A DNA stretch of 64,000 nt from Auricularia sp. M13 (taxonomy: Eukaryota > Basidiomycota > Agaricomycetes > Auriculariales > Auriculariaceae). This document shows, in pieces, positions 4,317-22,958 of this stretch. A model generated the notes under the pieces. The model did not search any database. It saw nothing but the letters and a program-made list of their open reading frames with translations, and was not told the origin of the DNA. Position numbers and translations under genes: made by a program. The first letter of the stretch is position 1, and each line of letters opens with the position of its first letter. The stretch lies in assembly GCA_037042915.1 (NCBI GenBank), contig CM073203.1, forward strand, positions 372,001 through 436,000, read 5' to 3'.

Positions 4317-5783
4317 ACGTGACAGCTGCATTTACGGGGACTTGCTTTCATCATTCTCGTTCGTTCACGCCGTTGGCAGTATGGATGAATCGTAGAGACG
4401 ATCCGCTCGATTTTAGTATTGCATTGAGAGCGAGGCGTCCACCTCGAGTCTGGGTCTGCTGGTCAACCTGTCGCGCTGTAGCTGATAGCTTGGAAGCTGC
4501 TCGTCCTGAAGATCATCGGCGGAACTGCCGACATCGCAACGCTCCACGAGCTCTTGCCGGTCACCAACAACTCCAAGATGAACGGGAATGTACCGTTCGG
4601 TGGATTCAGTCAACTATGCAAGGGTCGCCCTTGGTATCGGACGTGTATCTGTACGTGATTTTCCTCCAGTTTGGTGTGATTTTACGCTAACCAATGAGGC
4701 CAGAACTTGTCAATCGACGAGATCGACTTGTCATATCTCACCAGCCAGTCTAACAGCCCTTGCGCCAACGCCATGGTGATGTGTGACGATGCTGCAGTGA
4801 AGGAACGCAAAACAACTCATGCTTGTTATTGCAACATAAATCCGATGACTGCGCTGACTTTGACACCAGGGGGGCTCATCACAATGCATTCTTTATCGAT
4901 ACACTCCTCTCAATGGATCTCACTTGTCGCAGTGCACTCTTCGAGCCTCACGTTCTCCATGGCGTGCTTGACGACTGTCGTCATCCTGCAAGCATTGAGA
5001 TGAAAGGTTCTCCTTCTTGCACAAATCAATGACGTTCCAGGAAATAAGGCGAGATCGTTGATCAGGGCGGCTTGAGCACTGCTCGCGCAAACATGACGTC
5101 CTCGGCGTACTAGACAAGGCATCGGCAGGACGGTTCACATGACGAACAATCGTGTGCGACAAAGGACCGGCCATCCGTCCCGAGCGAGCTCTCTGCATTC
5201 AGTGGGACTGCGATTGCTCTTCGCGCCCGACTTGGGTATTGCTGGCGGCTGGGGCCTGGGGCTTGACTGATTTCTCGTTTATCGAAGCACCGGAGCGCCT
5301 GCTTACTTGGACGAGACGCGGTGTGCAGCAGGTGGCAAGAGATAGGAGCTTCGTCCCGCACGCCCGACCTTGTCTCCGCGCCTTTGTGCGCGCCAAGCCG
5401 CCCCATGAGCAACCGGCGTCGCCGCATGGAGTGCTCGGCATGGCTCGCCTTCTATTACGATACCCCACTGGACCATCCTGCAGGCTGAGACTTGCAAAGG
5501 GGCAGGAGATCTAATCGACAGCGAGAACACGCTTGCCACGCGAGGCCAGATATCCCTATCTCTGGCGCGGACCGGCTCGAGTTCATATGCTTTCTACCAA
5601 TCCAACGCGCGCTCGTCTCGGCGAGCGCAGCCGGGGCCGCGGAATTGAATCGATTCCAACAAGGAAGCTCGGAGTACGTTTCAGCACGTGACCCGACTTT
5701 CTCCGTTATAAAACGCAGCCATTTCCGGCTGAGCGTTCACTACCACCCATCACTTTCGGCATCCGTTCAGTAAGCGATCGACA
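4317..5783. other. No confident gene; promoter region at right end
   Basis: Frames are short and unrecognised. About 4490-4660 (+) has a short stretch of protein-like sequence (LLVLKIIGGTADIATLHELL) without a start, partner exon or known family. The right end holds a CACGTG motif at 5685-5690 and a TATA box, serving the next gene. Confidence 0.4.
5707..5713 (+). promoter_or_regulatory. TATA box (TATAAAA)
   Basis: TATAAAA lies about 75 bp before the ATG of the small Cys-rich gene at 5784, with a CACGTG palindrome 17 bp further upstream (5685-5690). The distance suits a 5' UTR of roughly 45 nt. Confidence 0.55.
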
Positions 5784-6192
5784 ATGTGCTGCAGAGTATG
5801 GTGCGTCCTTCCTATACGATCGTCTCGTCGTATCTCATGTCCGCAGGGAGGGTAATAAGTATCCCGAGTGTGGCGTATGTTGTGGACTGCTGCCGTCTCT
5901 GCCATATCTCATCGCTGCCAGCATTTTTATCACACCCGCCCTGAGCCTCTCAGCATTGTCGACTGCCAGAATCCCGCCTGTACGCACAGCTCGAGGCATC
6001 CTCCGAACTGCCGCAATTGCTTCAATCACCTGAAGGTGCGTACCTATTATCGAATGAGCGTTTGCCACATCACTTCGATAGCTAATCCCTGAGCAGCACT
6101 GGGAATCCGACATCAACAAGACCCTGTATCGCCGAACTGGCCCATGCCCCAACTGCAGGCGCGCACAAGCAGCAGCGGGCGGCAGCGGTTGA
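5784..6192 (+). CDS. Small Cys-rich protein, MC-W family, copy A (unknown function)
   Basis: Four exons, 5784-5800, 5847-5874, 5922-6035 and 6097-6192, encode 84 aa. The protein begins MCCRVW, continues with ...YPECGHFYHT..., then VDCQNPACTHSSRHPPNC and RNC, and ends GPCPNCRRAQ. Nine Cys besides the initial pair's neighbourhood and three His are spaced in CxxxxC, CGH and CPxC patterns, suggesting metal binding, although this is inference. There is no signal peptide or membrane segment. A paralog with the same first two introns lies at 10481-10866 on the same strand. I recall similar short unknown proteins as common in Agaricomycetes; no role is known to me. The first coding exon is only 17 nt. 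All phases match, and the paralogy strongly supports the model. Confidence 0.8.
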
Positions 6193-7335
6193 ACTTCACG
6201 GCACAACATGATCGACCTGAACCGTTTCTCGCCGTGGCCCGTCTTTCACGGCTTGCATCCCCCATATCGCTGCTGTGCGGCCTATCGCTTTCACGCTCTC
6301 GCGCACCTGTATTGCCACGACGCATGACCTTTAATACATCCCCAATTCCTAATGTCACCTAACCCTCCAGGTTGGCCTCGACTCTGCAAGCTCCTTGTCA
6401 GACCACACAAATACTGTGAATCAGAGGGCGATCTGGCGAAGATGAAGCGCTGTTGGCCATAGCCTCGGCATTCCAAGGCAAAGGAGGGCGCGCCCTCGAA
6501 ATTGTTTGTCTCTCTTAGCCGCAAACATTCCGTTGTCGTACACGCGGAGAACGCGTTCCACCCGTCAGATCCGACCAGGCAGGAGGCCAGCGGTAGCGGT
6601 TGCAGGCAGCTTAGATTCGTAATTATAGGCCTAGGCACGAGGTCACTGCGATTCCTAGAGTTCCTACGCCACCGTGTCACTCGATCCACGACATGAGGGT
6701 CTGCCGGCTTCTCATCATACGAGAGGAAGGCGAAGCATCCCATTACCGGCGACCAGGGCCATGGGATCATGACACACATTACTTCTTTGTCGCACAGATC
6801 CCAGCGGTTGGCAGCGAGCGGGGCCCAATGATCTCATATTGCGACTAGATTCGCGTTCGACAGTATCGATCGTCAAGCATGATTCTGGGCGGGTAATGCC
6901 CGGGACGAGCGGTCGGCTGACCACCGCACAGAAGGTGGTTCTGAGAGCCTGCGCGTCGCAGGCAGCTATCCCGATGGGTCATGTGGGCTGAGAATTAAGC
7001 CTTTCTCGCTCATCGTTCCACCTCTATCGGGTGTGAGCGGGCCCAGATCGAGCATTGACGTATGCGAGGACGTTGAGCTGTCAGACCAGTCCGCGGACAT
7101 ATCGCCTCCAATGAGACACAGCGCCACGTCGCGAGGGCAGCCTTGACGCTGGCGGCCGACAGAATGGGCGTTGGTCAAAGCATTCCTGGGGTTGGAACAC
7201 AGACGGAGACAGCGCCAATTTACGAACGCGTTGAGTGAGAATTACCGAAGAAGGAACGCACAGCCAGTACATTACTGGTCGAAAAGAGGCGGCGAGCAAC
7301 AATGCAACAGGTTCGAAGCGGACAGAAGCATCTCT
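6193..7335. other. No gene seen
   Basis: Contains a 162-codon minus-strand frame (6291-6779) and smaller ones, none with recognisable domains or supporting splice structure. Nothing else noted. Confidence 0.45.
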
Positions 7336-9026
7336 TTAGCGGGTCTTCCTATCCTCGCCCGAATCGCGGACGATTTCGCTGCTGAATTCGAATAGGCCGG
7401 TTTGGCGGAGACGGTCCGGCAGGACATTCCCGAGGGCGGTCGCAGGGGTGAGTAGTCCTCCGGGCGAAGCAAGAGGCCCCAGCTTGTCTGGAGCGTTGAA
7501 GAGCAGGCTCAAAGCGGACTCGGCGGCCATGACTGTTCGGATAAGAGGGCATACGCGCATCAGCCTGCTGCAAAATTGAGCTTATTCCGGTAACACAACG
7601 CACCGCTGGTTAGGAAGTACCCAGGATCACCTTTACCCCGCAATGTGGTACGGGCAAACGTGCGTTTGTCGCCGGCAAGGTACGTGACATTCGTCACGTT
7701 GAGACGCCCAGAATTCAGAACTCTGCGTGATGCAGAATGAGAAAAAAGAAAACTGGGAACAAGCAATCGAACTTTTCAGACGGCCCCGTTCCCGGAGGAG
7801 TCATCTTCCTCACAACCCAGCGGACCTGTGTTCGTAGTCTGAGAGGAAAATATTGCGAAAAAAAAAAGGAGGGGACAATACCGGTGGTACGAAGGCGAGG
7901 AGGAAACTGAACGTCATGATTGTGATGCTCTTGACGAGCGCGGAGAACAGGTTCGATGAAGTCAAAAATTCTTCGTATTTGAAGTCGTTGCCATAGTGGT
8001 GAAAGCCCCTGGCGGGAAATAGGCCCGCCTGCTGAAGTTGGAAAAGACCCCAGCTCCTGTGAACGATAGCACGATTCGTCCGGGACATGACAAAGAAACT
8101 GCCCCAACGATGAGGCATGTGGTGCACTCTGTGAAGTGGCAAAGGAGGCGCGTTGCTGTCCTTTCCTTTCACTGAACCAAGTTAATTCAGCACTGGGTCG
8201 CGAAGAACTCAATAAGCTCTGATACATACCGGGACTGAGAGAATATGCCGCGAAGCCCGCACGCAGAATGTGCTTGGGAACCTCGGAGAAGGACATGCTC
8301 ATCGTCTCCAATGTGCCCCCACTAGGACTGAGAGCAACGTCGTAGCCAGTAGTCGATTCAGAAGCACCAGGCCATGGAATACGCTGGGATTCGCAGTGCT
8401 GTTGGAGGGCGGACACCGAAAGGAATGCTATGATGTCTGAGGGGAGCGAGTCAAAGCCGCACGAGGGAATGATGATGGCGCCGGTTTTGCTCGCAAGTAA
8501 ATCAACCCTGGAAGAGTGCCTCAGTGCCACAGCCAAAATACCACGAATTAACGACGAACTCGCCGAGGATGCTGCGAATCCAAAACGTTTCGCCTGGGAA
8601 ATATCAGCGCCTTGATTGGGCAATGCTAGGACCAAATTCACCTGTAATATCGACATAGTGGACACCATGTCTCGCACAAGCTCTAGGAAAGGAGGGGGGC
8701 GTGAGTGCGAGAGTCTGAAATGGCCGCGTCACCGACTTTATGACCGGCGTTCCCAACCGATAGAACGGACCAGCGGTATTGATGACTACCTTGGTACGCG
8801 CAATAACCTCGTCCAGTTGAGGCGCATTGGTCACATCGAGCTCAACGAGGGTCACATCGTCGTGCGAGAGGCCGAGAGAGGACAGTAGAGCATCGCCCTT
8901 CGCTTTGCTGCGTGCACTGACGCCCAGAGTAAAGCTTGCGCGCTCCGGATGTGCTGCGAGGTACTTGGCAATGAGCTTCCCGGTGTAGCCGGTAGCGCCG
9001 AGCACGAGTACATCGAGCGAAGACAT
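7336..9026 (-). CDS. Saccharopine dehydrogenase-like oxidoreductase (SCCPDH family)
   Basis: NAD(P)-binding membrane-associated oxidoreductase of the SCCPDH/trans-acting enoyl reductase type; the substrate is unknown. Eight exons on the minus strand: 9026-8737, 8682-8642, 8593-8560, 8507-8230, 8171-7882, 7825-7773, 7722-7604, 7532-7336; 433 aa. The N-terminus is a Rossmann fold (VLVLGATGYTGKLIAKYL). Family blocks follow in order: GTPVIKACARHGVHYVDITG, ETFWIRSIL, KTGAIIIPSCGFDSLPSD, a hydrophobic segment near residue 305 (ITIMTFSFLLAFVP), GKGDPGYFLTS and the C-terminal GLLTPATALGNVL. The correct frame needs donors AA|GTCGGT and GA|GTTCGT for introns 1 and 3. Intron 1 (54 nt) has no stop in frame, so retention would add 18 residues. 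An upstream in-frame ATG at 9047 is possible. Confidence 0.9.
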
Positions 9027-10480
9027 GACGAAACAAGGAGCGTGCAAAACCGGTTGTTCCCGCGCTTAGGTCACCTAAGCGCCTGTCTCCGGCGGAGGTT
9101 TCGCCATACAGCGCCTCTGACAGTATGCCCTCATCTGAGTCTTTCGTATGTCTCGAATATAACGCTCAGGAAAAAAAGAACAGTACACTTCAGACGGAGA
9201 AGGGGGCTTACACAATCTCGCCGACTCAAATCTCATCACTTGTGCCAGCTTGTATGAATTTACGTGTTGACGGAATATCCCGCTTTCAAATCGGTCACTG
9301 CTTGCCAGCGTTCCCACGGGGGGACATCAAGGCAAATACGAACACCGTAACCACATGCTGGTCGGTCTGCTCATACCGGCATTCAGAACGGTATTCACAT
9401 GCTTTCGGGCCTGTGCAAACACTGAGCGCCTGTTTAGTGTCCAATCCTGTTCCGACTAGTCTTCCGCGCCCCTATCAGCGTCATACGACGCGAAGGCAGT
9501 TCAGACTGTTGCTCGTCCTGCCATTGGCCGGAGACGCAACGCATGAGACCTTGAGGCCTGCTGCTCGTTTTTCCATTGATATTCCGTGCTTTACGTCCTG
9601 ATTCCAGGGTCTGGGCACCCGCTTTTTGACCTTGAACTGCTGTCTCCGCGCAGTGATTTCGTCTGTCAGCTGCGGCAATGTTACCTGCACATGGTCTGGC
9701 TCTCTGCCCAAGGCTTCCGGGCATGTGTCGCAACCGTCGTTTGATTAGTTGTGCGTCTGACGCGCTTGCAGATGTGCAGGCTCACTGCTTCAGTCCCTGG
9801 CCCTCAATCCGCGTTTCGCAGATGTCCGGCATCCGCAAGACAACGAGATCGTCGCCCTTCCTGGCCCGCGTCGTGTTGTCGCCGCACTCACGGCCCAGGC
9901 GAATAGACGCGCAACGTTTCACCCTTTTCCGGCTGCACGCCTGCCGTTTCAACTTGTTGTGAGCTGTGAGGCCTGTGAGGGGCGGAACCGGAGTGCATGG
10001 CGGATCAATTCTCTGCCTGACAGAGCGAAGACCAGGTGCTGCTAAGTTTGAACTCTTGTTTGTTGAAGCATGCGCCACCGAGACGCTCTGTTTGAACCTG
10101 CCAATTTACTTTATTCGCGAATTCAGTCGGGGTGGGGAATCGAAGGGCTAGTCCTCATGGAGCCAAGCGGCACCATGTGTCAAAGGCTTATAACGTGCCT
10201 CCGGTCCCCCACCTCGTGGCGATGTTACCATTTGTTATCTGATTTAGTGATTATGCTATAAGAATTGTCTAGCCCATTCTTTGTTGGTGCAGCGGTAGAT
10301 CCGCGCACCGTGTGTCGCATCATCCATGTCCTCGGAGAGCGCGTGCGGAAATCGACAAACGCCCGACCGCGGGGTACCTATATAAGCAATGTTGTTCTGG
10401 ATGTCAGTCCGTGGCTAATCGACTACTCCCTTCCATCCCTCTCTTCCTACCTTCTCCCTGTATAGTACGTTGTGGAGACG
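9027..10480. other. No gene seen; promoter region for both neighbours
   Basis: This region lies between two divergent genes. Frames are short and unrecognised. A TATA box is present at the right end. Confidence 0.45.
10379..10386 (+). promoter_or_regulatory. TATA box (TATATAAG)
   Basis: TATATAAG lies about 95 bp before the ATG at 10481, followed by a pyrimidine-rich stretch (10425-10460) typical of fungal transcription start regions. Copy A of the same gene family also has a TATA box. Confidence 0.5.
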
Positions 10481-10866
10481 ATGTGCTCGAGCGTCTGGTG
10501 AGCCGGGAATGGACCATAGCTCATGTCACGCGACTCATGCGGCTTAGGGACGGAACGCGGCATAGCTGTGGAGTACGGCGGGCTTCCTGAAGCGACGCCA
10601 ACCAGACATTAACGCTCTCCTCACAGCACATGGCCGACCCCAGTGGTCGCCCAGCAAAAATCGACTGCGGGTCGTCGAAATGCATTCACAGCATTCTGCA
10701 CGACCCGCGATGTCTGGACGAGCGTTGCAAACGGGTGCGGCAACCCCTGCCTGCCGTAGTGTGGCCTGACATTGACAACGCGGTGCAGCCCGTCAAGGAG
10801 GAGATTCGGAACAAAACGACAGTGTTAAAGACACTGTGTCCGCGATGCGCTGCCGGCCGTCGCTGA
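10481..10866 (+). CDS. Small Cys-rich protein, MC-W family, copy B (unknown function)
   Basis: Three exons, 10481-10497, 10548-10572 and 10627-10866, encode 93 aa. It begins MCSSVW, then ...HSCGH..., IDCGSSKCIHSILHDPRC, LDERC, and ends TLCPRCAAGRR. It aligns with copy A at 5784-6192 at the MCxxVW start, the CGH turn, the DCxxxxCxHS block and the terminal CPxC. The first exon is 17 nt in both, and introns 1 and 2 fall at the same codons and phases. Copy B lacks the third intron of copy A and has a longer, charged linker before the final CPRC. No signal peptide is seen. Paired Cys and His suggest a small metal-binding protein (inference). Function unknown. Confidence 0.8.
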
Positions 10867-19239: not shown

Positions 19240-20997
19240 TCATGATCTGACCGCCTCCACTGCAGCAGACAGCGCGATGCGACAGTAATCCAACACTGTG
19301 TCGGCATGCTCTAAACCAATACTCATGCGCACGCTAGCAACTTCCACGCCGTGCTCTGCGACCCAGTCAAGCTCCCAATAGTGAGCAATGATGGTGTACG
19401 GGCATGCGAGCGTGAAGTTCGTCCCGATACTCGGCCCTTTGTAACACGGAAGAGCGTCAAAATACGCACGGGCTGCACGCTCGTCGTTGAACGTGATGTT
19501 AAGCAGTCCTCCGAAGCCACCGCCCGGCCTGCGGGCGATGTCGTATAGCTCTCGCCTCTCCCACTTGGGGTAATAGACATGCTTCAGCACTCGATCGGGC
19601 CCGCACTGTGCATGCAGAAAGTCGGCGACGGCTTCCGCATTCTTGCTCATGACGCGGGAGCGGTGCACAAAATCGCGAGAGTTGAGCTCCAGTTGTATCG
19701 CGTCTTCATGCCAATATAAGTCTTCAAACGACTCTTTTAGTTGATCGCGCAGGCCAGTATAGTGTCGTCCGTTTGGATTAAGAACCAAGCTGAAGGAGGT
19801 TAGATTCAAATGGCCGGATTTCTTGCAACTAGATGCACGATACCTTCCGCCCAGCACGTTCTGAGCGCCGCTGAACGCCTTGGTCAGGCTGCTGATCACG
19901 ATGTCGGCGTACGGCAGCACGTCTACGTTGGTAAAGTTCCCGACCGTCTCGTCGATGACCATGATGAAATCGAATCGATTCGCCAGCGCGCGGAGGCGAG
20001 GCAGGTCGACGGACCTCAATAGCGGGTTGCATGGAGACTCGCAAAAGAGGGCAAGCACTGGGAGGACTGTCGCATTTTCTACGGAAAGAAGACTCTCCAA
20101 AGCTTCTAGGTCTTTGTCGTCTCCCGCTCCAAAGAGATGGTGCCCAGATCCCCAATTCTTCAGAACCTGGAACGTATCGACATATCCGAATCTGCAACGT
20201 TCGTTAGGGTGCATGCGCACAGTCCCGTCAGATTTGATGAATCACTCACCCGAAACAGATGCACCTTCCTTCGGGACGCGTTGAGAGTACGAGCTGATGT
20301 GCAGACCAGATTGCAGACATTCCAGATGGATAGAGAAACACGTCATCGAGCGCAACAGCCTTCAGAGTCCCTTCAGCTGCGTCGCTTTTCATAGCAGCCG
20401 CTATGCGCTCGCGCGTGACCCTCTTGGCACGCTGACCAGCCACATTCAATGCCGCAAAATCGGGTGCAGAGCCGGAATGCTGAGCGAGACAGACATCCGC
20501 CATCCGTGGAGAAACGCCAAAACCAGTGAGCATCCAGAAGGTCCTGGCGCGCGACGCGACCTCTTCAGGATAAAAGACGGCGTGCAAGTGGATATCTGTC
20601 GAGGAGGCCGAGGACAAGCGCCCGAGTTCGATTGGGACGACCCGGATGGGCGAGCTCAGCGGACTCGCTGTATCACGAGCACAGAAGGCGCGGAAAGCTG
20701 CTGCGATGTTTGCGCTCGTAAAGATAAGACGGCGCTCGCCAGGCTGGGCGGCATGTTCTTCCAGCAAGGTCGAAAGCTGGCGCGGGTGGTCAACTTTGCA
20801 CTGAAGCTTACGAACGCCAGCAGCAATACCTCTTTCACCGACGAATGAAAAACAAACCGCGGATAGCCCGCGCGCACGAGAGAAAGGATGTAGCCCTCTT
20901 TCTCTTTGTAGTCGACATTGTCTTGCCATGTCGGCAAGGAAAACAAGAGATTATGGAGAGAGCCAGTAGGGATCATTTCGCCCAGCTTAACGGACAT
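19240..20997 (-). CDS. Cystathionine gamma-synthase-like PLP enzyme, copy A (full length)
   Basis: Trans-sulfuration enzyme making cystathionine from cysteine and an activated homoserine, of the long fungal Str2 type. Four exons: 20997-20830, 20776-20250, 20191-19844, 19789-19240; 530 aa. Residues about 1-200 are the fungal N-terminal extension. The Cys/Met-metabolism PLP domain follows: [55 protein letters not shown] (Asp contacting the PLP nitrogen), ISSLTKAFSGAQNVLGG with the Lys that binds [23 protein letters not shown] and the C-terminal KGPSIGTNFTLACPYTIIAH and SIGLEH. Introns all keep phase. It lies directly downstream of a related tandem copy (21271-22958) on the same strand. The start matches that of copy B. 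Confidence 0.92.
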
Positions 20998-21270: not shown

Positions 21271-22958
21271 TCAGGTTCCGAATGACAGCTGATTCCCTAC
21301 CTCGGACCAACCGGCCCGAATTAGCCACATCCTGCATGGCGTCCTTTGGGCCAGCTGAACACGAATGTGTATGAATCGTCGGGCGGCGGCCTCGGTGTGG
21401 AATGTGATGCTCAGCAGGCCGCCGAAGCCGGGCTCGCACTGCTCGAGAGGTGAGACTCGGCGCACGGCGTCGAAGAGCTCGCGGGTCTCCCATTTGGGGT
21501 AGTAGACGTGCTTGAGAGGGCTGGTTGCGTCGGTGTAAGAGAGGAGGAAGGACGCGAGCTGCTCGGCGTTTCGGTTGATGATGTGTGCGCGATGGGCGAA
21601 GTCGCGCGAGTTCAGCTCCATCTGGATCGCGTCTGCGTGCCAGTAGAGGTCTTCGAACGTATCCTGCAGTGAGGCGCGTAGGACATCGTAATGCCGTCCG
21701 TCGGGGTTAAGAATCAGACTTCATGATAATCAGGACTCGCACAGCATGTCTAGCAGTTTTAAAGTGGACCTTATTACTTACCTTCCACCCATGACATTCT
21801 GCGCGCCACTGAACACCTTCGTGAGGCTGCTCATCAAGATATCCGCATACGGCAATACATCGACGTTGGTAAAGTTCCCGATCGTCTCGTCGATGACCAG
21901 CAAGCAGTCGAATTGGTCCGCAAGTGCGCGCAAACGCGAGACGTCGACGGAGCGGAGCAAAGGGTTGGAGGGCGTTTCGCAAAACAGAGCGAGGACTGGC
22001 TCGCTCGCGAGGACGTTCTCCAAGGCAGCCAAGTCGTGCTGATCACCGGTGCCGACGAAGTGACAACCCGGTCCCCACTTTGTGAGGACTTTGATGGTAT
22101 CGGTGTATCCGAAGCTGCAAAAGTTTGTGAGTCAGAGGAGGTTGTTCAATCGATCGTTTTCAATGTACATGCCCGAAGCAGACGCTTTTGAGGCGTTGTC
22201 GTTGCGGGATAGCGAGTGCAGCCTGATGGGCACTCCAGATTGCCGCCATTCCGGATGGGAAGAGAAACACATCATGAGGAGCGACGGGCATGGTGCCAAT
22301 TTGGGGTGCAGCGCGAGTTGTACGTGCTGGAGGCGGGTCGCTCTTCACCACTGCAGCCAGTCGCTCCCGGAGAACCTGTTTCGCAAGCTGCGCAGCAGAT
22401 GGGTCAGGGATGGCATCGTTGCCGCTGTATTCACCAGCGCCAAATCGTAACGCCTCCAGGCGGGCAATGACGAAATCCGCAAGTCTGCTCGACATGCCCC
22501 AGCCAGCGTGCTGCCAGAATTCTTTGGCGCGCGGGAGGACCTCCCCGGGAAAGAAGACAATCCACAGGCTTATGTCGGAGGGAGACGGTGCAGGGCCAAG
22601 GTCGAGGGGGACTATCCGAATATTTTCCCCGTCTGACGGCAGTGATGAGCAGAAATCCTTCAAAGCAACTGCGATTCTCTCGCTTGAAAAGGGCAAGCAG
22701 CGCTCTCCTGGCCGGCCTTCGCGCGCTTCCATAATGGCAGACATCTGTGAGAAGAGGTCAACTACTCGTGCGCTGTAGCGTGGGGTGCGGCAGCACCTTT
22801 TTTATCGACGCGTGGATGATAAACCGCGGATATCCCGTCCGCAAGAGGTCCAGGACGCGTTTTTCGCCCTCCTGATACGCGACGTTGTCTTGCCATTCTG
22901 GCAGAGACACCGAGAGGCTGTGGTGCGAGCCAGCGGGGATGGGCTCGCCCAAGGACAT
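21271..22958 (-). CDS. Cystathionine gamma-synthase-like, copy B (C-terminally truncated)
   Basis: Tandem paralog of copy A with the same four-exon plan: 22958-22797, 22744-22173, 22114-21782, 21718-21271; 504 aa as read. It retains the N-terminal extension, [67 protein letters not shown] with the PLP Lys, and [12 protein letters not shown]. After [19 protein letters not shown] the similarity stops: the conserved end present in copy A (KGPSxGTNFTLACPYT... through SxGLE, roughly 75 residues) is missing and replaced by about 30 unrelated residues before TGA. Intron 2 (22172-22115) needs a GC donor, GG|GCATGT; the GT nearby gives the wrong frame. Either a pseudogene or a gene encoding an altered, possibly inactive protein. 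Shares a 319-bp divergent region with the YAR1-like gene. Confidence 0.78.

Follow-up and report, generated by a model that had tools for sequence, protein, structure and literature searches.

Two small Cys/His-rich proteins of Auricularia sp. M13 are part of a large family of genes, apparently without a name, most of whose modelled members have a 17-nt first coding exon

The window, a stretch of 64,000 nucleotides of contig CM073203.1 of Auricularia sp. M13 (positions 372,001 to 436,000, forward strand), carries two genes for small Cys/His-rich proteins, here called A and B. Their features, in window coordinates, are the following.

5707-5714, plus strand: TATA box of gene A in the sequence, 77 nt before the ATG
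5784-6192, plus strand: gene A, four exons in a translated splice model, Cys/His-rich protein of 84 residues
5784-5800, 5847-5874, 5922-6035 and 6097-6192, plus strand: exons of gene A, 17, 28, 114 and 96 nt
5784-5800, plus strand: first coding exon of gene A, 17 nt with a phase 2 junction, a length and phase found in eight of nine intron-bearing models of the family
10379-10386, plus strand: TATA box of gene B in the sequence, 102 nt before the ATG
10481-10866, plus strand: gene B, four exons and 75 residues in the preferred model
10481-10497, 10548-10572, 10627-10734 and 10789-10866, plus strand: exons of gene B in the preferred model
10481-10497, plus strand: first coding exon of gene B in the splice model, 17 nt with a phase 2 junction
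10735-10788, plus strand: probable third intron of gene B, 54 nt and stop-free, at the position of intron 3 of gene A

The two genes are separated by 4288 nt on the plus strand, in agreement with an earlier note on this DNA, which had placed them about 4.3 kb apart on one strand and had given each a TATA box, found here at 5707 and 10379. In its splice model gene A is interrupted by three GT...AG introns of 46, 47 and 61 nt at phases 2, 0 and 0. In gene B the first exon of 17 nt and the second of 25 nt are followed by introns of 50 and 54 nt, and the first two introns have the same phases, 2 and 0, in both genes, as had been claimed. The common blocks MCxxVW, CGH, DCx4C, H-x3-C and CPxC are all present in A and B, and the 17-nt first coding exon is seen in both translated splice models. 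The proposal that A and B are paralogues with a common microexon structure is supported. With regard to protein size, the 84 residues proposed for A stand, while B probably has 75 residues and not 93. The gene between A and B, on the minus strand, encodes a saccharopine-dehydrogenase-type NADP-binding domain (Pfam E 1.3e-13) and is unrelated to the family. Further along the window, a Cys/Met-metabolism PLP enzyme (Pfam PF01053, E 5.4e-20) is encoded on the minus strand at 19243-20241, and a region at 21781-22131, also on the minus strand, looks by eye like a second copy of it.

The view that B had lost a third intron, or that A had gained one, is probably wrong. The segment 10735-10788 of B begins with GTGCGG, has a CTGAC starting 23 nt from its end and finishes with CAG. 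A total of 45 models of B were scored, one without any removal and 44 with the removal of a GT...AG segment of at least 40 nt, none leaving an internal stop, against two profiles from which B was excluded. Removal of 10735-10788 ranks first of the 45 in both cases, with 56.4 bits vs 46.0 without the intron in the profile of A, L021 and L023, and 61.6 vs 50.9 in the profile of nine relatives. With this intron included, A, B, L021 and L023 share one intron position, and by a hand count in the translations the final CxxC comes 16 residues after the junction in each of them. Since this removal scores best and both the intron place and the spacing match the three relatives, the 75-residue model of B is preferred over the 93-residue one, and B probably keeps a third intron. 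Intron loss in B was accordingly rejected on the profile scores of the 45 models, in favour of an intron of 54 nt that is still present.

Relatives were sought by tblastn in the genome of origin (14 contigs, 52.1 Mb), with A and B and then with the new members as queries, and were found on contigs 1, 2, 3, 4, 5, 6, 7, 9 and 11. The family occupies about 28 places in this genome, 10 of them known from similarity matches alone, and divergent members may be missed in this count since tblastn scores the best candidates only. The first 13 places are those of A, B, C and their partners in a second assembly copy (six), of L016, L020, L021, L022, L023 and L049 (six) and of L052. The further ones are five places of the L051 type, three of which were read, a pair on contigs 5 and 7, four places of the L050 type and four with an open frame of 112 residues. 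Within the last ten, one L050 copy was read, its place resting on similarity without a gene model. Ten different proteins were modelled, namely A, B, C, L016, L020, L021, L022, L023, L049 and L051. One of the members lies on the same contig beyond the window.

C11:367.8-368.3 kb, minus strand: member C, at a distance of about 9.5 kb from A and of 3.7 kb from the window

The C-like L052 (C4:3099700-3100200, match at 3,099.9 kb) was read in part, without exon 1, and inspection by eye suggests a possible additional internal microexon of 12 nt, placed after CGH and before the core exon. A and B are not an isolated pair, and homologues beyond the pair are plentiful within this genome, which was the scope of the check. 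The pairwise score of A with L016, on contig 9, is 127 and exceeds the 109 of A with B; similarly, B scores 135 with L021 and 127 with L023, both above its score with A. In a tree of the family one of seven inner branches is well supported, that of the group of L020, L022 and C, and most subgroups are joined weakly. Outside this genome no relatives were found in genome_contigs (query B exon 3) or in viral_contigs and plasmids (query C), prokaryote, virus and plasmid collections that are little informative for this question. By their sequences, A and B are two members of a large family that apparently has no name.

All ten modelled proteins present the pattern M-C-x(10-11)-C-x-H-x(6-13)-C-x4-C-x2-S-x2-H followed by a distal CxxC, a fit that is descriptive, as the pattern was derived from the same ten proteins. 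In the alignment the residues M1, C2, C14, H16, C30, C35, S38, H41, C70 and C73 (numbering of A) are invariant in all ten, an invariance that is partly circular because the family pattern guided the choice of several splice models, and G15 and C45 of A are kept in at least 90% of the proteins. Some models involve weak donors, GTCAGC and GTCAGT in L021 and GTGTGA and GTCAGC in L023. The 17-nt phase 2 first exon is found in A, B, C, L016, L020, L021, L022 and L023; the exceptions are L049, with a first exon of 12 nt, and L051, which is intronless. The N-terminus of L051 reads MCQNAFASTRSACGH in one piece, with the MC-x10-C-x-H spacing also found in B, L021 and L023 after splicing, the spacing being x11 in A and the other five. 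On account of this agreement L051 appears to act as a natural cDNA-like record supporting introns 1 and 2, and it may be regarded as the nearest thing to RNA evidence for the spliced N-terminus.

The relationship was further examined with profiles and shuffled sequences. A profile of the six proteins other than A, B, L021 and L023 gives 42.6 bits to A and 40.1 to the 75-residue B, scores reached by none of 1000 composition-matched shuffles, the best of which attained 8.1 and 9.4 bits, respectively. The same profile gives 26.5 bits to L021 and 33.1 to L023, and held-out profiles of the other nine proteins give 32.7 bits to L016, 54.0 to L049 and 29.4 to L051, again with none of 1000 shuffles as high in each case. 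Profiles of single sequences or small groups are weaker, seven of 40 comparisons being equalled by at least one of 200 shuffles: with the L016 profile, 12 of 200 shuffles scored as high as L021, 9 as high as L023, one each as high as C, L022 and L020, and 106 as high as L051, and with the L051 profile 28 of 200 scored as high as L016. Matches inside single reading frames were also obtained by tblastn, for example between residues 7-79 of A and L016 (E 4.2e-5) and between residues 21-51 of C and contig 4 (E 5.3e-6); these matches and the held-out profiles support the family independently of the pattern-guided splice sites. A chance chaining of exons was rejected on the shuffle controls. The MCxxVW start motif was discarded as a family marker. 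Its DNA pattern has 51 matches in the genome vs 28 for the reversed pattern, five of which are accounted for among the 51 by A, B, the second copies of these two and L021. A pattern scan of ten loci at other matches (L001-L008, L010 and L011) revealed no family core, and the motif is therefore not diagnostic by itself.

A second, inverted copy of the window's surroundings is found near 2.03-2.16 Mb of this contig, with an identity of about 88-99% depending on the piece, and a comparison of window positions 1-56485 with C11:2.03-2.10 Mb indicates that most of the window is included. A sample at 300-310 kb still matches. Samples at 200 and 500 kb have no match to the compared pieces of the inverted copy, and neither do samples at 600 kb, whose expected partner was compared in part, and 800 kb, whose partner lies outside the compared pieces. 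The inverted copy is either a segmental duplication or an uncollapsed haplotype. Between the two copies there are two exonic differences in A, none in B and two in C, all four at third codon positions; those of A are synonymous by hand reading, and C and its partner C' translate identically. The introns differ in one column in A, one in B and 17 in C, 19 in total. In A taken alone the exons are not less changed than the introns (2 differences in 255 nt vs 1 in 154). Because the four exonic differences are all at third positions, as against 19 intronic columns, purifying selection on A, B and C is hinted at by these small numbers.

The family proteins have 75-115 residues with 8-12 scattered Cys (7-14%), an odd number in some members (nine in A, L023 and L049). 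In the first 30 residues of the ten proteins no stretch of 10 exceeds a mean Kyte-Doolittle hydropathy of 1.13, and A and B are negative; this low hydropathy, a simple measure, suggests that A and B have no obvious signal peptide. In Pfam no match reaches its cut-off for the ten members, the best E being 0.015, and four sub-threshold matches (E up to 1) comprise two zinc ribbons, a Nab2-type zinc finger and SR1P. NCBIfam gave nothing at E up to 10 for A, the 93-residue B and C. Among PDB sequences a four-member profile, which included the 93-residue B, found no significant match (best E 0.096), and a ten-member profile no match at E up to 10. An AlphaFold prediction of exon 3 of B alone was poor (mean pLDDT 65, pTM 0.29), its query having lacked the first 14 residues and included 18 now taken for intron, and it was not used. 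Uncharacterised hypothetical proteins of similar look presumably exist in other Agaricomycetes and mushrooms, and the sequences themselves are likely to be already in databases as hypothetical proteins. In a keyword search of the literature, within the excerpts available, no publication was recognised as describing this family, and the available part of the text of PMC12730594 contains none of the terms sought.

Certain members of the family lie on DNA that recurs elsewhere in the genome. A query of 451 bases around L051 matches five places on contigs 2, 6 and 7 at 99-100%, with 97-100% at the protein level, and a 521-base L050 query matches four places at 99-100%. Another match has an open frame of 112 residues (33% to L051, with E from 4e-6 to 6e-6) and is present on each of the four contigs that carry L050.

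C7:1949318, C7:3497060, C6:763457, C2:187598 and C2:1603642: L051-type places (L051, L053, L054 and L055)
C1:3389637/3429123, C4:2630152/2590771, C9:861428/901052 and C7:80721/116534: at each of the four places, the two coordinates of an L050-type copy and a 112-residue frame, from similarity matches

The next 2500 bases beside L051 are common in full to four of the five places at 98-100%, and at the fifth bases 1-444 and 1864-2120 stand side by side, with about 1.4 kb inside absent. The dispersed repeat in which L051 sits thus spans 2.9 kb or more and is present at five places. The L050-type copy and the 112-residue frame are separated by 39.5 kb on contig 1, 39.4 on contig 4, 39.6 on contig 9 and 35.8 on contig 7, with a constant relative orientation. 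This constancy of spacing and orientation at four places is most simply read, from the match coordinates, as a unit of about 40 kb that carries two family genes and is probably present four times. Two further places, C5:869510 and C7:223257, have identical scores. Family genes are present on near-identical dispersed DNA copies, and the copied DNA would represent mobile elements that spread family members. Ten reading frames in the 2.5 kb beside L051 presented no Pfam match above the cut-off and no transposase. KDZ transposases are linked to the agaricomycete and basidiomycete lineage, and this genome has 149 matches to the KDZ transposase PF18758 among the best 150 of 163 candidates scored, with none in 14 control genomes. 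By their coordinates none of the 149 matches listed lies inside the L051 units or the units of about 40 kb, and among these matches no co-location with KDZ transposons as possible carriers is seen.

The family resembles several known systems in part. The RING pattern is C-x2-C-x(9-39)-C-x(1-3)-H-x(2-3)-C-x2-C-x(4-48)-C-x2-C, and the N-terminal C-G-H and C-terminal C-P-x-C of the family recall C3-x-H4 and C7-P-x-C8 of RING and treble-clef folds, A having in addition H41-x3-C45-x2-C48. However, A and B have no opening C-x2-C, the Cys after C-x-H is 6-13 residues away in the family (13 in A, 12 in B) instead of 2-3, and H41-x3-C45-x2-C48 comes after C-x5-H and not C-x(1-3)-H. None of the ten members has a Pfam RING match, and membership of A and B among RING fingers was rejected on the pattern. 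Residues 43-73 of L022 weakly match Zn_ribbon_20 (PF23551, E 0.015), with 15.8 bits against a cut-off of 27 and in one of ten members. Metallothioneins have a very high Cys density with CxC/CxxC arrays, to which 8-12 scattered Cys in 75-115 residues do not correspond. In the parts of the publications available, the Haloferax micro-proteins, such as HVO_0758, are likewise very small, with Cys pairs and zinc binding, but they are archaeal and have two C(P)XCG motifs, and the likeness is noted without a claim of homology (PMC10716476, PMC6562870).

The conservation of Cys and His across the ten aligned proteins fits metal binding. In our preferred reading, to which we give a probability of roughly 55%, A and B are functional and come from a multigene family whose products are small zinc-binding adaptors inside the cell, some of the members being carried by mobile DNA. 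Such small intracellular zinc-held folds are suggested by the N-termini of A and B, which are not hydrophobic, by the moderate Cys content and by the fixed C-x-H, C-x4-C, H and CxxC. Spaced C-x-H and CxxC pairs at 7-14% Cys suit structural zinc sites, and the zinc ribbons and the zinc finger among the weak Pfam matches point the same way. Zn2+ would be held by the N-terminal Cys with C-x-H, by the central C-x4-C-x2-S-x2-H with the Cys that follows, and by the C-terminal CxxC. The protein would fold around Zn2+, probably with two or more sites, and the folded protein may act as a small adaptor that binds a protein or nucleic acid. Zinc as the ligand, the intracellular location and the adaptor role are what we infer from these features, and the mobility of the copied DNA is inferred as well.

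The small size, high Cys content and multigene organisation in a fungus would also suit secreted, disulfide-bonded effectors or other small secreted proteins, a reading that is made improbable by the M-C start and by N-termini that in A and B are not hydrophobic (by simple hydropathy neither presents the signal peptide expected of an effector), by the conserved C-x-H and CxxC pairs and by the odd Cys counts of A, L023 and L049. A metallothionein-like metal buffer, which would equally be small and Cys-rich, seems very improbable given the Cys content of 7-14%, the lack of CxC arrays and the conservation of His and Ser at fixed places. That the genes are pseudogenes, or strings of exons pieced together by eye in non-coding sequence, is a concern raised by sequence-only models with tiny exons that depend on the choice of splice sites; it is hardly credible in view of the shuffle controls, the third-position differences between assembly copies, the same N-terminal spacing in intronless L051 and the tblastn matches inside single reading frames.

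An unlikely, though serious, alternative to the zinc-binding adaptor family is an accessory family encoded primarily by large basidiomycete elements, whose products would bind element DNA or counter silencing, with A, B and C as older immobile descendants. It would account for the near-identical L051 repeats at five places, the L050-type copies at four, the 112-residue frame at a distance of 35.8-39.6 kb and in constant orientation from each, and the pair of identical scores on contigs 5 and 7. However, high-identity protein matches of A and B are restricted to their own two places each, and intron-rich genes with a conserved exon structure resemble host genes. Moreover, no Pfam match above the cut-off and no transposase appear in the ten frames beside L051, no listed KDZ match falls inside the units, and carriage could be passive, no element ends having been found. 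As a more specific and tentative possibility, a recently amplified mobile element of about 40 kb, in four copies, would carry two family genes far apart and a smaller element family would carry a further one. On this view small proteins of the family would be a hallmark of undescribed large basidiomycete elements, with A, B and C as domesticated host genes keeping an ancient 17-nt microexon. In the portions of the Starship literature available, Starships are likewise large units in several copies, with possible cargo of unrelated genes, but they are described from Pezizomycotina, whereas the units here come from a basidiomycete and are known by match coordinates.

Three aspects seem to be new, namely a microexon that is conserved although the family is divergent, the corrected model of B and the association with dispersed DNA of recent copying. 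Since the conserved M-C start is encoded in the first exon of 17 nt, automated annotation is expected to truncate or miss these genes, and the frequency of the family among mushrooms and related fungi would be revealed by a splice-aware profile. If the association with recently copied DNA is true, the family would also provide a handle on large mobile elements in Basidiomycota.
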